DNA of 41,958 bases from a virus, in IMG/VR virus record IMGVR_UViG_3300020385_000022, positions 1-41,958 of that record; one strand, given 5' to 3'. The translations under genes were made by a program, and so were the position numbers. A model generated the notes under the pieces. The model saw only the letters and a list, made by a program, of their open reading frames with translations, was not told where the DNA came from and ran no database searches. Of the stretch, positions 3,106 to 36,287 are shown in pieces; the first letter of the stretch is position 1, and each line of letters opens with the position of its first letter.

Positions 3106-3136
3106 TTTGGTAGAGTGAAATATTTTTCTTATCTTT
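3106..3136 (+). promoter_or_regulatory. Early-type Bacteroidetes promoter
   Basis: TTTG at 3106-3109, a 20-nt spacer, and TATCTTT at 3130-3136, matching the Bacteroidetes -33/-7 consensus. Upstream it carries the conserved AAAAAAAGCT box that also encodes the last codons of gene 2219-3100. It drives the cluster of small genes that begins at 3167. Confidence 0.8.
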
Positions 3137-3166
3137 AATTATATTAATAAATTAAAAGATAGAGAT

Positions 3167-5001: not shown

Positions 5002-5015
5002 ATATTTATATTAAA
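5002..5015 (+). promoter_or_regulatory. Putative late promoter motif close to a start codon
   Basis: ATATTTATATTAAA, the same motif found before eight other genes, but ending (ATATTTAT) only 6 nt before the ATG at 5015. If used like the others the transcript would be leaderless or nearly so. It may also be chance in AT-rich DNA. Confidence 0.35.
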
Positions 5016-5240: not shown

Positions 5241-5254
5241 ATATTTATTAAAAA
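5241..5254 (+). promoter_or_regulatory. Putative late promoter (ATATTTAT motif)
   Basis: ATATTTATTAAAAA ends (ATATTTAT) 18 nt before ATG 5266, the same distance and flank as the copy at 19023. It precedes the histone-like gene. Confidence 0.6.
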
Positions 5255-5265
5255 GGATTAATGTT

Positions 5266-5451
5266 ATGGCATCGAATGAATTATTCGCAAAGATGGAAGG
5301 TTTATGGACAGAGTTCCAAGACAATCATTCCAAGTTTACAGAAAAAGGAAATAAAGCAGCTGCGACTCGTGCAAGAAAGGCAGTTGGTGAATTAAAAAAA
5401 TTAGTAACAGAATATCGAAAGGCATCTGTTGCAGAATCAAAAAGATCTTAA
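5266..5451 (+). CDS. Histone H1-like (Hc1-type) DNA-binding protein
   Basis: A 61-residue basic protein whose pattern matches the conserved N-terminal domain of bacterial Hc1/histone H1-like proteins: MASNELFAKMEGLWTEFQDN, then a KGNKAAATRARKA core and ELKKLVTEYRKAS. In Chlamydia and Bacteroidetes these proteins condense or coat the nucleoid. Here the Lys/Ala-rich C-terminal tail typical of full-length Hc1 is missing, leaving only the helical core. With a late-type promoter upstream, possible roles are condensing phage DNA for packaging or binding the host nucleoid. AAAGGA sequences lie upstream; spacing to the next gene is 3 nt. Confidence 0.75.
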   Translation: MASNELFAKMEGLWTEFQDNHSKFTEKGNKAAATRARKAVGELKKLVTEYRKASVAESKRS

Positions 5452-7017: not shown

Positions 7018-7048
7018 TTTGGTAGAATGAAAAAGAATTGTTATATTT
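7018..7048 (+). promoter_or_regulatory. Early-type Bacteroidetes promoter
   Basis: TTTG at 7018-7021, a 20-nt spacer, TATATTT at 7042-7048. The core AAAAAGATTTGGTAGAATGA matches the promoters at 3106 and 4105, but the upstream AAAAAAAGCT box is absent because the terminator lies there. Confidence 0.8.
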
Positions 7049-7077
7049 AAGTATTATTAATTTAAAAGAAAGAGAAG

Positions 7078-8935: not shown

Positions 8936-8949
8936 ATATTTATTTAAAA
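8936..8949 (+). promoter_or_regulatory. Putative late promoter (ATATTTAT motif)
   Basis: ATATTTATTTAAAA ends (ATATTTAT) 17 nt before ATG 8960 and is followed by an AGGTAAGG ribosome-site-like sequence. Identical over 14 nt to the copy at 1195. Confidence 0.55.
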
Positions 8950-9954: not shown

Positions 9955-9985
9955 TTTGGTAGCGTGAGAACTATTCCTTATTTTT
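9955..9985 (+). promoter_or_regulatory. Early-type Bacteroidetes promoter before the ligase operon
   Basis: TTTG at 9955-9958, a 20-nt spacer, TATTTTT at 9979-9985. It carries the AAAAAAAGCT box upstream and shares its leader (ATATAGTAGATAATTA) with the promoter at 4105. It drives genes 10016 and the DNA ligase. Confidence 0.8.
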
Positions 9986-10015
9986 ATATAGTAGATAATT
10001 AATTAAAATAAAGAT

Positions 10016-11618: not shown

Positions 11619-11649
11619 TTTGTTTATTTGTAAAATTTTTCTTATATTT
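11619..11649 (+). promoter_or_regulatory. Early-type Bacteroidetes promoter before uvdE
   Basis: TTTG at 11619-11622, a 20-nt spacer, TATATTT at 11643-11649. Only about 5 nt separate the -7 box from ATG 11655, so the transcript would be leaderless or have a minimal leader. Confidence 0.6.
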
Positions 11650-11654
11650 AAAAT

Positions 11655-12701
11655 ATGAATGAAAACGTAAGACTAGGTTATGCCTGTGTTAACATGACGT
11701 TAACCGAGAGGCCAAAAAAGTTAGGTGGTAGAGTTACAACTTCTCGTACGGCTAGAAAAGCTAGCTGGTATCCAACGCGTGACTTGTCATTGTTAGGTGA
11801 GCGTGCATTACTAAACGCTACTGACTTGTTACATTATCTGAAATGGAACGAAGACCATAACATCAAATTATTTCGTGTAGGTTCTGAATTAGTGCCATGG
11901 CATGATCAATTCGAATTACATGAACTTCCTCAGTATGATGAGTTAGCAGCTAAGTTGTTAGAATGTGGTAACTATGCTCGAGAGCATGGTCATCGATTAA
12001 CTACACATCCAGGTCCATTTCATGTGTTAGGTTCTCCGCATGAGCATGTTGTTGATAAGACTATTATCGGTCTTGAGCGACATTCCGAACTATGGGACCT
12101 TATGGGCTATACACCATCTCATGAGAACAAGATCAATATTCATATTGGCGGCGCTTATGGTGACCACGAGACTACTGCAACCAGATGGATCAAAAACTAT
12201 TATCGATTATCTGAAGCATGTAGAGCTCGTTTAGTTGTTGAGAATGATGATAAGCCTTCCATGTATAGCGTGCGTCAATTGTATGACCTGTTCCATCGCG
12301 AGACTGGCATACCTATTACATTTGATTATCATCATCATATGTTCCATCCGGCTGGCCTTAGCGAATACGAAGCATTACAGATGGCTGCTAGTACATGGCC
12401 AGATGATGTTAGACAATGTACTCATTATAGCGAATGTCGTAGACATGAGTTCCAACGTAAGTTTGAAGCTAAAATGGCTAAGCAGAATATTCCACTTAAC
12501 GAAGTTAGCGAATGGCCAACGTTTGCTAAAATGAAACATGACATAGATAAGATACGTATGCAAGCTCATTCCAATTATATCAAAGATGAGATACGTACTT
12601 ATGATATGGATTTAGATATTGTAGTAGAAGCTAAAGCCAAAGAATTGGCAGTTTTACGTTATCGCGATATTTATCAATATAATAAAAAGGTTTTACTATG
12701 A
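11655..12701 (+). CDS. uvdE: UV damage endonuclease UvdE/UvsE
   Basis: A 348-residue TIM-barrel metal-dependent endonuclease that nicks DNA 5' of UV photoproducts. It opens with the family start LGYACVNMTL. Conserved features include FRVGSELVPWH, THPGPFHVLGSP, NKINIHIGGAYGDHE, RLVVENDD and the metal-binding ITFDYHHHMFHP run, with His, Glu and Asp ligands all present. It is slightly longer than typical, owing to a charged helical C-terminus. Base composition looks a little less AT-rich than its neighbours, which could reflect separate acquisition. It suggests a phage exposed to sunlight. The end overlaps the next gene by 4 nt (ATGA). Confidence 0.93.
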   Translation: MNENVRLGYACVNMTLTERPKKLGGRVTTSRTARKASWYPTRDLSLLGERALLNATDLLHYLKWNEDHNIKLFRVGSELVPWHDQFELHELPQYDELAAKLLECGNYAREHGHRLTTHPGPFHVLGSPHEHVVDKTIIGLERHSELWDLMGYTPSHENKINIHIGGAYGDHETTATRWIKNYYRLSEACRARLVVENDDKPSMYSVRQLYDLFHRETGIPITFDYHHHMFHPAGLSEYEALQMAASTWPDDVRQCTHYSECRRHEFQRKFEAKMAKQNIPLNEVSEWPTFAKMKHDIDKIRMQAHSNYIKDEIRTYDMDLDIVVEAKAKELAVLRYRDIYQYNKKVLL

Positions 12702-14504: not shown

Positions 14505-14534
14505 TTTGATCTACGAAAAAAATTCTTTATATTT
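14505..14534 (+). promoter_or_regulatory. Early-type promoter before the protease/sigma operon
   Basis: TTTG at 14505-14508, a 19-nt spacer, TATATTT at 14528-14534, then about 23 nt to ATG 14558. No AAAAAAAGCT box. It would drive the ClpP-like, HD and sigma-factor genes as one unit. Confidence 0.65.
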
Positions 14535-14557
14535 AATAAATTAATAAAAGGTAATAG

Positions 14558-15910: not shown

Positions 15911-16195
15911 ATGATAACAACAATTATAATATTATCAGTACTATTACTAATTTCGGTATTTGTAAATTTTAATCAAATACGTAAACAAGAAGCTAACGAA
16001 TCATATATTGAAGAATTAGAAAATTCAAATACAGAATATTATCAATTTTTTACAACTTTAAAGTCGCGAATGAACGAATCTAATTCAAAATTAAAACAAA
16101 TTGACCGATTAGGATCTTTTGAATCAGATGATGAAACCGGATTTATATTTGATGAATTGCGTGATATAATTGAAAACCTCAATAAAGGATTTTAA
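15911..16195 (+). CDS. Single-span membrane protein with coiled coil
   Basis: I choose ATG 15911, 1 nt after the HD stop in a TAATATG context; a reading from 15872 would overlap the HD gene by 38 nt. Residues 1-20 are one membrane helix (MITTIIILSVLLLISVFVNF), followed by a charged coiled coil (RKQEANESYIEELENSN) and a polar tail ending LNKGF. 94 residues. Small anchored coiled-coil proteins of this type are common next to phage sigma genes, but the role is unknown. The stop overlaps the sigma-factor start by 1 nt. Confidence 0.6.
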   Translation: MITTIIILSVLLLISVFVNFNQIRKQEANESYIEELENSNTEYYQFFTTLKSRMNESNSKLKQIDRLGSFESDDETGFIFDELRDIIENLNKGF

Positions 16196-16983
16196 TGGAA
16201 ACACTTAGCCCAGTTGATAAATTTTATGAATGGTTAGAAAAAGAATTATCAGATATAGAATCGAATGGTCCAAAAAAACGTCGTGGTAGAAAACCTACAA
16301 AAAATATGTATTTCACATACATGACAGATCAAGCGATTATTGCATATAATAAAGAATCTAGTTATGCTAAACGTAATAAAGTATTTCGTGAGCATATTAA
16401 TTATCCTTTTAATAAATTAGTAGAAAATATTTATCATACATTTAGATTTTCGTATTTTGATGTACCTTATGAAGATGTTAAAGCAGAAGTAGTAGCATTT
16501 TTAACAGAAAAAATAGGAAAGTATCAAGAAGGGAAAGGAAAAGCTTTTTCTTATTTTTCTATTGTTGCTAAAAATTATCTTATTATACAAAATAATGCAA
16601 ATTATGCAAAATTAAAATTACGTAGTGAACCATCTGAGATAGATGCTAATAGAAATATTAGTGCAGAGGTATCATTAAATGATCATCAAGAATCGTTACG
16701 AGATTTTACCGATTTATGGGTCAATTGGTATGATACTCATATTAATACAATATTTGTTAATAAACGTGATATCATTGTAGCCGATACAATACTTGAATTA
16801 TTTAGAATACGAGAGAATATAGAAAACTTTAATAAAAAGGCATTATATATTCTAATTAGAGAACGTACCGGATTAAAAACACAAAATATTACAAAAGTAC
16901 TCAATGTAATGAAACGAGATTATATGAAAATGTATACTGTTTATCGTAAATCAGGTCATATAGTCGATTCAACAAATCTTTGA
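16195..16983 (+). CDS. Late-transcription sigma factor (T4 gp55-like)
   Basis: A 262-residue protein matching the phage sigma factors that replace host sigma for late genes. The diagnostic region is KIGKYQEGKGKAFSYFSIVA followed by KNYLI (AFSYFSIVAKNYLI at 117-130), the sigma region 2-like core-binding and -10 recognition segment. Upstream, YPFNKLVENIYHTFRF (about 64-79) fits the preceding helix. The N-terminus carries a basic PKKRRGRKPTK stretch. The C-terminal third is helical (LFRIRENIENFNKKALYILI). T4 gp55 is 185 residues; this one is longer. It should direct RNA polymerase to the ATATTTAT motifs found before the virion genes, usually with a clamp-linked co-activator (gp33) not seen here. 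Confidence 0.85.
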   Translation: METLSPVDKFYEWLEKELSDIESNGPKKRRGRKPTKNMYFTYMTDQAIIAYNKESSYAKRNKVFREHINYPFNKLVENIYHTFRFSYFDVPYEDVKAEVVAFLTEKIGKYQEGKGKAFSYFSIVAKNYLIIQNNANYAKLKLRSEPSEIDANRNISAEVSLNDHQESLRDFTDLWVNWYDTHINTIFVNKRDIIVADTILELFRIRENIENFNKKALYILIRERTGLKTQNITKVLNVMKRDYMKMYTVYRKSGHIVDSTNL

Positions 16984-16996
16984 TATTTATATAAAA
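16983..16996 (+). promoter_or_regulatory. Putative late promoter at the start of the tail block
   Basis: ATATTTATATAAAA ends (ATATTTAT) 15 nt before ATG 17005 and is followed by AGGA. It begins on the last base of the sigma-factor gene's stop codon. It marks the switch from regulatory to virion genes. Confidence 0.65.
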
Positions 16997-17004
16997 GGAT
17001 TATC

Positions 17005-17415
17005 ATGAGTACAGAATTTGAATTATTTAATGGAACAAATTTTTCTGATTTGATGCGTGATATTTATCATAATTCAAAAAAGAAGTCTAGACAGATCGAT
17101 GGATTGATAAAAGAACTACAACCATTAATTAAAAATACTGGTGATGCCTCTGTATTAGTTCCCATGATAAAAGATTATCTAGAAGTATCTGTTAAAAACG
17201 ATGATGCCTTAGTAAAATTAGCCGCAGTTGTACAACGTTTAATATCTGCTACAAATAAAGAATCCGATGATAGTGAGTTTGGTTTATCCGATGAAGAACG
17301 TCGACAATTATTAGAAGAAGCAGAATCTGAAGTTAAAAAATTGCAAGCAGATAATAAGGAAAATAATGCCGAACAATATAAATCTACAGATCGGTCAAGT
17401 AGTACAGACAGATGA
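17005..17415 (+). CDS. Hypothetical protein, probable tail/baseplate accessory
   Basis: A 136-residue, mostly helical protein (SDLMRDIYHNSKKKSRQIDG, DYLEVSVKNDDALVKLAAVV, and ELLEEAESEVKKLQ-like ending). The tail is Ser/Asp/Arg-rich. It is the first gene after the late-type promoter and overlaps the spike-like gene by 50 nt. T4-like phages of marine hosts carry small helical proteins at this position, but I cannot name a family. Confidence 0.5.
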   Translation: MSTEFELFNGTNFSDLMRDIYHNSKKKSRQIDGLIKELQPLIKNTGDASVLVPMIKDYLEVSVKNDDALVKLAAVVQRLISATNKESDDSEFGLSDEERRQLLEEAESEVKKLQADNKENNAEQYKSTDRSSSTDR

Positions 17416-19022: not shown

Positions 19023-19036
19023 ATATTTATTAAAAA
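19023..19036 (+). promoter_or_regulatory. Putative late promoter (ATATTTAT motif)
   Basis: ATATTTATTAAAAA ends (ATATTTAT) 17 nt before ATG 19047 and is followed by GGATAA. Same 16-nt flank (through GG) as the copy before the histone-like gene at 5266. Confidence 0.65.
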
Positions 19037-27888: not shown

Positions 27889-27902
27889 ATATTTATTAAA
27901 AA
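27889..27902 (+). promoter_or_regulatory. Putative late promoter (ATATTTAT motif)
   Basis: ATATTTATTAAAAA ends (ATATTTAT) 19 nt before ATG 27915 and is followed by GTAGGATAA. It lies in the only gap (51 nt) of the long structural run. Confidence 0.65.
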
Positions 27903-31662: not shown

Positions 31663-31676
31663 ATATTTATATTAAA
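31663..31676 (+). promoter_or_regulatory. Putative late promoter before the resolvase
   Basis: ATATTTATATTAAA ends (ATATTTAT) 19 nt before ATG 31689, just after the stop of the lectin-like structural gene. Resolving replicated DNA before packaging is a late task, so late control fits. Confidence 0.6.
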
Positions 31677-31688
31677 TAGGAACAAGTT

Positions 31689-32096
31689 ATGGCATGGAAA
31701 CGTAAATCTAAGATACGTGCAAACGCAATTAAACACGGTTATAGAAGTGGATTTGAACATCGAGTATCAGCTCAATTAAATGAAGCAGAAGTTAAATTTG
31801 GATATGAAGATACGGTTATAAAATATATCAAACCAGAAACAAAACATACTTATACAATTGATTTTACTTTACCAAATGGAATTTTAGTTGAGACAAAAGG
31901 TCGTTGGGTTTTAGAAGACCGTAAAAAACATTTACTAATTAAAAAACAACATCCAGAATTAGATATACGAATAGTATTTCAATCAGCTCGTACAAAAATA
32001 CGTAAAGGTTCAAAAACAACATATGGTGATTTTTGTGATAAACATGGAATTCCATGGGCAGAAAAAAGTATACCAGAAAGTTGGTTAAAAGGTTGA
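31689..32096 (+). CDS. T7 endonuclease I-like Holliday junction resolvase
   Basis: A 135-residue nuclease closely resembling T7 gp3. Catalytic residues Glu23, Asp58, Glu68 and Lys70 keep exactly the spacing of T7 Glu20, Asp55, Glu65 and Lys67. Surrounding sequences RSGFEHRVSAQLNE, HTYTIDFTLPNGILVETKGR, DRKKHLLIKKQHPELDIRIV and the TYGDFCDKHGIPWA end are all T7-like. T7 gp3 is 149 residues and acts as a domain-swapped dimer that cuts branched DNA. T4 uses an unrelated resolvase (gp49) for this job, so the gene was probably exchanged. Its late-type promoter supports a role in debranching DNA for packaging. Confidence 0.92.
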   Translation: MAWKRKSKIRANAIKHGYRSGFEHRVSAQLNEAEVKFGYEDTVIKYIKPETKHTYTIDFTLPNGILVETKGRWVLEDRKKHLLIKKQHPELDIRIVFQSARTKIRKGSKTTYGDFCDKHGIPWAEKSIPESWLKG

Positions 32097-36100: not shown

Positions 36101-36274
36101 TTTGGAGTTCTAGATTCTGATAATTTAAATAGCATGTATATGTTGTTTGATTATTTGAAATCACAATTTGGATTTATAATGTGTATATCTCACATTGATG
36201 CAATGCGTGATATCGTAGATAAATTAATAGAAATCAAAAAAGTTAACGGATATTCTGAAATTGCATATGACTAA
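33122..36274 (+). CDS. Single-chain Mre11-Rad50 nuclease (gp47-gp46 fusion)
   Basis: A continuous 1050-residue ORF joining two proteins that are normally separate. Residues 1-370 are an Mre11/SbcD phosphoesterase: ADVHVRN (about 19), VAGDIVHAK (about 54), GNHD (91-94), HHGSVHN (about 160) and LLGDIHKPQ (about 193), covering the metal ligands. Residues 380-1050 are a Rad50/SbcC ATPase: Walker A APNASGKST (404-412), a long coiled coil, a zinc hook CKFC (Cys722, Cys725), ABC signature LTSGMEKF and Walker B FLAIDEGFG (Asp991-Glu992). It processes DNA ends for recombination-dependent replication and host DNA breakdown. In T4 the two are separate genes. No frameshift is needed; a covalent 1:1 complex follows. 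Confidence 0.93.
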   Translation: MHNIDIGIEKIDKIYHIADVHVRNVKRHKEYRLVFKRLYSYIKKTKTLDSLIYVAGDIVHAKTDMSPELVSVVSDFFKQLADLAPTIVITGNHDCNLNNNYRLDALSPIVKALNHQNLHYLKDNGVYSMAGVHFNVMSVFDKPSDYIKADSFEGDYKIALHHGSVHNASTDAGFVLSNTHVTTEIFKGHDLVLLGDIHKPQFLDDDKTIAYAGSLIQQNHGEALDHGIMVWDLKSKQCEFIDIENDYGYYTFHVDAGKITNPSDKIPLRPRLRFKVKDTDSATLKRIIADVKSQYKVQDIALQKVNALNTTDSKNKINFGNIRDVEWQNKVITDYLTDEYALDDELLDTVRYINRQVHSKLPTSTLTRNITWTPKRFEFSNMFSYGTNNSIDFSNMNGTYGLFAPNASGKSTLLDALAFCCFDRCSRTKKAAHVLNNKKSNFQCKFEFDLGKYTYFIERKAKKQSNGHVKLNVDFWRIDESGNHESLNGEQRDSTNKSIRQYLGSYEDFVLTALSLQNNNTGFIDKTQRERKDLLSQFLDLDIFEKQYLIGHEDIRETAALIREYKRKDFSTDLSAAKDIISQFTGSYEQMKLDKTEHEEMKSNLNDIIFVMTKELKKVDETLDPDIISNKIEQAKIQLQEYIQDRDQKAGMIVSKKDLINNTQSKIDSVDEDKLYSDIDILKTYISDVEKLKNDLKLKQLKIQHAQKMVSKLDKHEWDPECKFCMANPWLHETKQVADLLPKLIDEEQQILFDIDDLGNKIDELRKEQPREKIDMLNAFKSDVNKWNQLLATMEHEHSKCEWDIETLFVKISDYKKQLTKSKRQKDNIEFNKKKNSEIQEIRDEITTVNTELSGLDSKLLNLSGKLKMAEKSREDAESGINRLKTLEQQYQAYEYYQKAVNRDGVPYHLISKALPQIESEINNILNQIVDFTMVMDTDGKNINAYIVYDDDNYWPLELTSGMEKFISSLAIRTSLINVSNLPRPNFLAIDEGFGVLDSDNLNSMYMLFDYLKSQFGFIMCISHIDAMRDIVDKLIEIKKVNGYSEIAYD

Positions 36275-36287
36275 TATTTATATGAAA
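36274..36287 (+). promoter_or_regulatory. Putative late promoter before the tail fibre
   Basis: ATATTTATATGAAA ends (ATATTTAT) 19 nt before ATG 36300, followed by AAAGG. It starts on the stop codon of the nuclease gene and allows the fibre genes to be expressed late, apart from the replication genes before them. Confidence 0.6.

Follow-up and report, generated by a model that had tools for sequence, protein, structure and literature searches.

The octamer ATATTTAT is probably the start signal of late promoters in this phage, read by the phage's own sigma factor in a T4-like switch that would use a different recognition sequence (probability about 0.8). It was picked out in the window (the whole stretch of 41,958 nucleotides that was analysed) by a first-pass annotation, which proposed it as a candidate late-promoter motif. 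The box and its placement are confirmed, with support far stronger than the sequence alone could show. Its predicted late-promoter role is strongly supported because position, strand, class of downstream gene, conservation, sites following terminators, a fixed AAA and a separate set of host-type promoters all point to it. A literature search found no publication describing a ATATTTAT box for a phage.

Nine copies, all on the + strand and in front of genes, were found where they had been annotated. The focal copy (16983 to 16990) lies upstream of gene 17005 and was kept in 83 of 85 distinct upstream regions of relatives (among the matches listed). Among the matches listed, the box was also kept upstream of gene 19047, which heads a baseplate cluster (19023 to 19030; 67/72 relatives), and of gene 27915 (27889 to 27896; 41/41). 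The copies before gene 8960 (8936 to 8943), the endonuclease I/resolvase gene 31689 (31663 to 31670) and the large gene 36300 (36274 to 36281) were kept in 10 of 11, 36 of 48 and 12 of 14 relatives, while those before gene 1228 (1195 to 1202), gene 5015 (5002 to 5009) and the histone H1-like gene 5266 (5241 to 5248) were each present in the one relative found. Much as annotated, eight of the nine stop 14 to 25 nt short of the ATG; the ninth, at 5002, stops 5 nt short. The ATG of gene 5015 lies so close to this box that the predicted transcript (AAATG) would be almost leaderless. The stop codon of the preceding gene shares its last base with the box at 16983 and at 36274. The annotated classes of downstream gene also held, with baseplate genes after 19047, an Hc1 histone-like protein at 5266 and an endonuclease I/resolvase at 31689; boxes precede terminase, sheath, tube and baseplate genes, that is, late (virion) genes.

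Eleven further copies (eight on the + strand, three on the - strand) lie elsewhere in the window, and the total of 20 is no excess over the 18.1 found in shuffled sequence. The annotation's proposed check against shuffled sequence is therefore negative for the plain count, which would have missed the signal, and positive for placement upstream of genes. Open reading frames were called mechanically and every 8-mer in the 50 nt upstream of starts was compared with its genome-wide frequency; ATATTTAT ranked first of all 8-mers (9 vs 0.55 expected, P = 8e-9). The mechanical set omits the start at 17005 and includes a small ORF after 12667, so that its nine are not exactly the annotated nine; the copy at 12667 lies inside a gene end, 23 nt upstream of that ORF, and is not followed by the AAA seen after other sites. 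The octamer again came first in phage Mel-JY01 (18 vs 2.5, P 2e-10), and in Flavobacterium phage immuto it belonged, along with TATATTTA and TATTTATA, to the overlapping group that ranked highest (19 vs 1.1, 1e-17). The identical script applied to T4 returned the known late box TATAAATA first (12 vs 0.43), which validates the upstream 8-mer test.

The signal is strand-specific. Upstream of starts the box outnumbers its reverse complement by 19 to 1 in immuto and 21 to 2 in Mel-JY01, and the extended pattern ATATTTATNNNAAA favours the sigma gene's strand by 19:0 and 23:1 in two long relatives, each of which has one copy of the reversed-pattern control. The T4 consensus TATAAATA itself occurs once upstream of window genes (0.36 expected). 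Its exact reverse complement, TATTTATA, is present at four of the nine window copies simply because their ninth base is A. That the box is the T4 box on the opposite strand is ruled out by the strand specificity in immuto, Mel-JY01 and the two long relatives.

Relatives were collected by IMG/VR scans with the sigma (two scans), the endonuclease (one) and gene 1228 (one); none came from a viral_contigs scan with gene 7963. With distinct upstream regions of orthologs of each window gene as the unit, the nine boxed genes keep ATATTTAT in 252 of 274, against 5 of 828 for the remaining window genes (both among the matches listed). Directly 3' of the sigma gene the box persists where the homologous sigma is as little as 47% identical; it is still there in immuto, whose sigma is 39.6% identical and where the rest of the gap is scarcely conserved. 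A small number of the remotest homologs have no box at this place. At gene 31689, several of the 12 relatives (out of 48) that miss the box appear to have a different gene arrangement upstream. Upstream of the 19047 ortholog in five relatives (L134, L136, L139, L143 and L144) the exact box is replaced by ATAATTAT followed by TAAAAA, possibly a variant box.

Alignment columns 5' of the box are mostly far less conserved. After it come three free bases and then AAA at +4 to +6 from the box, found in 83 to 100% of sequences at each of six sites (88 to 98% at the focal site before gene 17005). At these sites the AAA keeps its register relative to the box, although the distance to the start codon spans 4 to 34 nt in relatives, so the A-triplet is part of the box and not of the ribosome site. 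The AAA sits where transcripts should start. The Flavobacterium -7 box is TAnnTTTG at -12 to -5 (PMC9723704), and registering the TTT of the late box with it places +1 on the first A of the AAA; the predicted transcript start for gene 17005 is A16994, ±1. No conserved -35 element was found at boxed sites, and TTTG at host spacing lies upstream of 8 of 248 late boxes only. As in a T4-type late promoter, this would be a lone -10-type box lacking a -35 element, with its position relative to the start read from the AAA. In Mel-JY01 and immuto a terminator-like hairpin stands just 5' of 9 of 38 boxed genes vs 14 of 430 others (Fisher 7e-5 and 0.03, respectively); the boxes thus often lie just 3' of terminators, as expected for promoters. 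A ribosome-binding element was ruled out by the variable box-to-start distance.

Genes outside the late set have promoters of the Bacteroidota type, TTTG-N19/20-TAnnTTTA, upstream of genes 7078, 10016/10316, 11655 and 14558, a set disjoint from the boxed genes. All are on the + strand. TTTG-N20-TATATTTA precedes genes 7078 (7018 to 7049; kept in 4/4 relatives) and 11655 (11619 to 11650), TTTG-N20-TATTTTTA precedes gene 10016 (9955 to 9986), and TTTG-N20-TATCTTTA lies at 3106 to 3137. TTTG-N19-TATATTTA (14505 to 14535) heads the protease/HD/sigma operon and is kept, under the strict pattern, in 11 of 45 relatives. Spacers of 18 to 20 were searched, and all near-start examples in the window have 19 or 20. 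Orthologs of 7078, 10016/10316, 11655 and 14558 carry a host-type promoter in 4/4, 2/3, 7/12, 7/23 and 11/45 cases, in that order; at orthologs of boxed genes it is absent except in 2 of 54 at gene 31689. In order along the DNA come the host-type promoter at 14505, an operon ending in the sigma gene, and then a late box on the last base of the sigma stop codon. The promoters at 3106, 7018 and 9955 have a common extended TTTGGTAG..TGA at -33 and are perhaps a distinct early subclass.

The host is presumably a member of the Bacteroidota, since the host of immuto is a Flavobacterium and promoters of the TTTG/TAnnTTT kind point the same way. Mel-JY01 (PP395634) is recorded as a Microcystis phage; its sigma and tail protein group it with Flavobacterium phages, and the host label may stem from a non-axenic culture.

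The sigma gene (16195 to 16983, + strand) encodes a protein of 262 aa. Aligned with hhalign against a gp55 profile (T4, Vibrio, Aeromonas and cyanophages), residues 42-131 match gp55 domain 2 (P = 1.3e-4), and it was the sole match among 45 window proteins (next P 0.051). A gp55-family region 2 is thus supported by a weak but specific match. Searches of Pfam, PHROGs and PDB sequences gave no usable match. The AlphaFold (AF2) model is helical (pLDDT 84); sigma factors make up about half of the PDB structures that it matches by fold, none of the matches being individually significant, and similar names appear among its matches in a viral structure library. Members of the gp55 family are small and have no sigma region 4, whereas here helices are predicted C-terminal to region 2 (190-204, 214-225 and 229-253, within residues 190-253). 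The C-terminal hydrophobic sliding-clamp motif of that family is also missing, the protein ending in VDSTNL. Because of the extra C-terminal domain and the missing clamp motif, the window sigma is best described as probably working like gp55 and sharing its core domain, rather than as a standard gp55 member. Most of its homologs have S[PA]V[DE]xFY near the N-terminus (window 16195-16240), conserved amid variable surroundings, and those without it often end in KSEFLE; both resemble the C-terminal clamp motif SLDFLYE of T4 gp55. In a 170.8-kb relative the sigma match (G001:141966-142667) contains two in-frame TAA codons, perhaps through a frameshift, an error in sequencing or the placement of the match ends.

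The annotation had matched the box to this gp55-like sigma, and that pairing is supported indirectly. Adjacency, co-occurrence and the presence of no other recognisable sigma in five related records argue for it; the Pfam search that found no other Sigma70 region 2 protein in those records misses the window sigma too. The C-terminal helical domain, absent from gp55, tells against a simple match. The comparison that had been suggested with other phages carrying this sigma is divided: immuto, Mel-JY01 and the IMG/VR relatives have both box and sigma, and in the 484-kb phage LR756508, whose sigma is 39% identical, ATATTTAT was not enriched in the 50 kb examined (80-130 kb). The top upstream 8-mer of that stretch is, weakly, TTTAAGTT.

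These observations bear on who reads the box. A late promoter could instead be read by the principal sigma of the host, which would take the box for a -7 element that lacks TTTG and would be helped by a phage activator, or some other phage factor could read it; the neighbouring sigma would then serve other promoters. The A--TTT that the box has in common with the Bacteroidota -7 box TAnnTTTG (PMC9723704) would fit this, as would the LR756508 stretch, but the phage's host-type promoters retain their TTTG and stand on other genes, the box travels with the sigma in the relatives named above, and the Pfam search, with its blind spot for this sigma, offers no second candidate among the five records. 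Recognition by the host sigma or another factor is accordingly considered unlikely, and reading by the phage's own sigma is preferred.

An RNA-level element (a translation enhancer or processing site) in place of a promoter would account for boxes near start codons and for the part that the box takes in a hairpin at gene 17005 (described below). It is very improbable, since the box-ATG distance, compared both within a phage and from phage to phage, ranges from 2 to more than 40 nt with the AAA constant relative to the box, since boxes follow terminators, where upstream RNA would not carry them, and since most genes have no box. As for a motif that arose by chance in AT-rich sequence and was selected by eye, the total count, equal to the shuffled expectation, speaks for it; the positional P of 8e-9, rediscovery in two other phages and the ortholog counts of 252/274 vs 5/828 (among the matches listed) leave it a vanishingly small probability, and the ortholog conservation test had already refuted it.

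In the preferred model, a late promoter read by the phage sigma, ATATTTAT would be the sole conserved promoter element, at about -11 to -4, the -10 (Bacteroidota -7) position, and RNA would start at the AAA that begins on the fourth base after the box. Early and middle genes, including the sigma operon, would run from the host-type promoters. The sigma would then join host RNA polymerase and steer the enzyme to the solitary box in front of virion, tail, resolvase and histone-like genes, a step for which gp55 with TATAAATA in T4 is the model. At gene 17005, which is the first late gene to follow the sigma gene, read-through RNA would sequester the ribosome site in a hairpin formed around the box, while box-started RNA, free of the 5' arm, would be translated. 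Late timing would thereby be enforced twice.

This hairpin is new here; in read-through RNA it would keep the ribosome site masked. In the window its 5' arm, AATCTTT (16975 to 16981, + strand), overlaps the end of the sigma gene, and its 3' arm, AAGGATT (16995 to 17001, + strand), is the ribosome-site-like sequence (AAAGGA) of gene 17005. Arms flank the box at this site in relatives also, as the pairs TAATCCTT/AAGGATTA, AAGTCCTT/AAGGACTT, GATAGTATCC/GGATACTATT, GCCTCTT/AAGGGGC, among others. Stem scores average 13.80 vs 11.53 (sd 0.30) with flanks swapped between relatives, and 15.76 vs 13.33 with wider flanks, although relatedness inflates pairing scores and swaps do not fully remove shared ancestry. 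Pairing is maximal at a single register, -1 with +5, and no such excess was found at the other five late sites tested (8960, 19047, 27915, 31689 and 36300). When folded, the ribosome site has a probability of being unpaired of 0.34 in read-through RNA vs 0.74 in the predicted box-started RNA. The window's own stem is among the weaker ones (0.40), and its 5' arm overlaps coding sequence. A conserved hairpin masking the ribosome site of gene 17005 in read-through RNA is, on this comparison, somewhat favoured.

Ribosome-site-like sequences precede eight of nine boxed genes in the window vs 10 of 36 others (Fisher 0.0014), 13 of 19 vs 76 of 206 in Mel-JY01 and 0 of 19 vs 7 of 180 in immuto; many replication genes have one in no relative. 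Bacteroidia ribosomes ignore such sequences through bS21 (PMC9976891), and phage bS21 has been linked to late replication (PMC9723584). Sigma and bS21 are both encoded by Mel-JY01, G001, G003 and LR756508, and immuto has no bS21. Ribosome sites and phage bS21 could possibly form a translational late switch. As a tentative picture, one that is doubtful as a whole, a large, little-characterised T4-type clade on Bacteroidota would have rebuilt its late programme: a divergent sigma (region 2 plus a C-terminal domain, with a clamp-type motif moved to the N-terminus) would read the lone -7-like ATATTTAT, late mRNAs would be marked by ribosome sites readable via phage bS21, and a hairpin would lock the first late gene.

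With the box, late genes of these phages can be mapped directly in silico. The phages are common in IMG/VR (at least 600 profile-scan matches), and no usable Pfam or PHROGs model matches their sigma. In a lineage whose promoters are of the Bacteroidota type, the box would represent a T4-type late switch that recognises another sequence. Each genome has a single sigma and some twenty sites, which makes sigma-box co-evolution testable, and immuto (Flavobacterium sp. LMO8) is a cultured representative.

In T4 late transcription, gp55 reads the lone -10-type box TATAAATA, with no -35 element (PMC2988020). The window resembles T4 in having a lone -10-type box near start codons, a phage sigma with a gp55-like region 2 and virion genes downstream; it differs in the box, ATATTTAT, and in a sigma with an extra C-terminal helical domain and no C-terminal clamp motif. 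In silico late boxes of the T4 relatives S-PM2, KVP40 and 44RR are near that of T4, and Aeh1 has a/gC for TA (PMC2988020). The Aeh1 change affects the first two bases, whereas ATATTTAT, aligned as nATATTTAT, has the central AA replaced by TT, the first T lost and a last T added. T4 genes e, soc and 49 have hairpin-masked ribosome sites that are freed in late-promoter transcripts (PMC3014915). At gene 17005, as in those genes, a conserved stem pairs the ribosome site with sequence 5' of the late start, the late box lying in the 5' part of the hairpin and the 3' arm being the ribosome site; unlike theirs, this hairpin, known from sequence comparison alone, would guard the late gene that comes first after the sigma operon. 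Bacteroidota sigma A promoters have TTTG at -33 and TAnnTTTG at -7 (PMC9723704). The late box differs from them in having no TTTG at -33 and no fixed T before its A, but shares A--TTT, and the phage's non-late genes use the host form with G changed to A.
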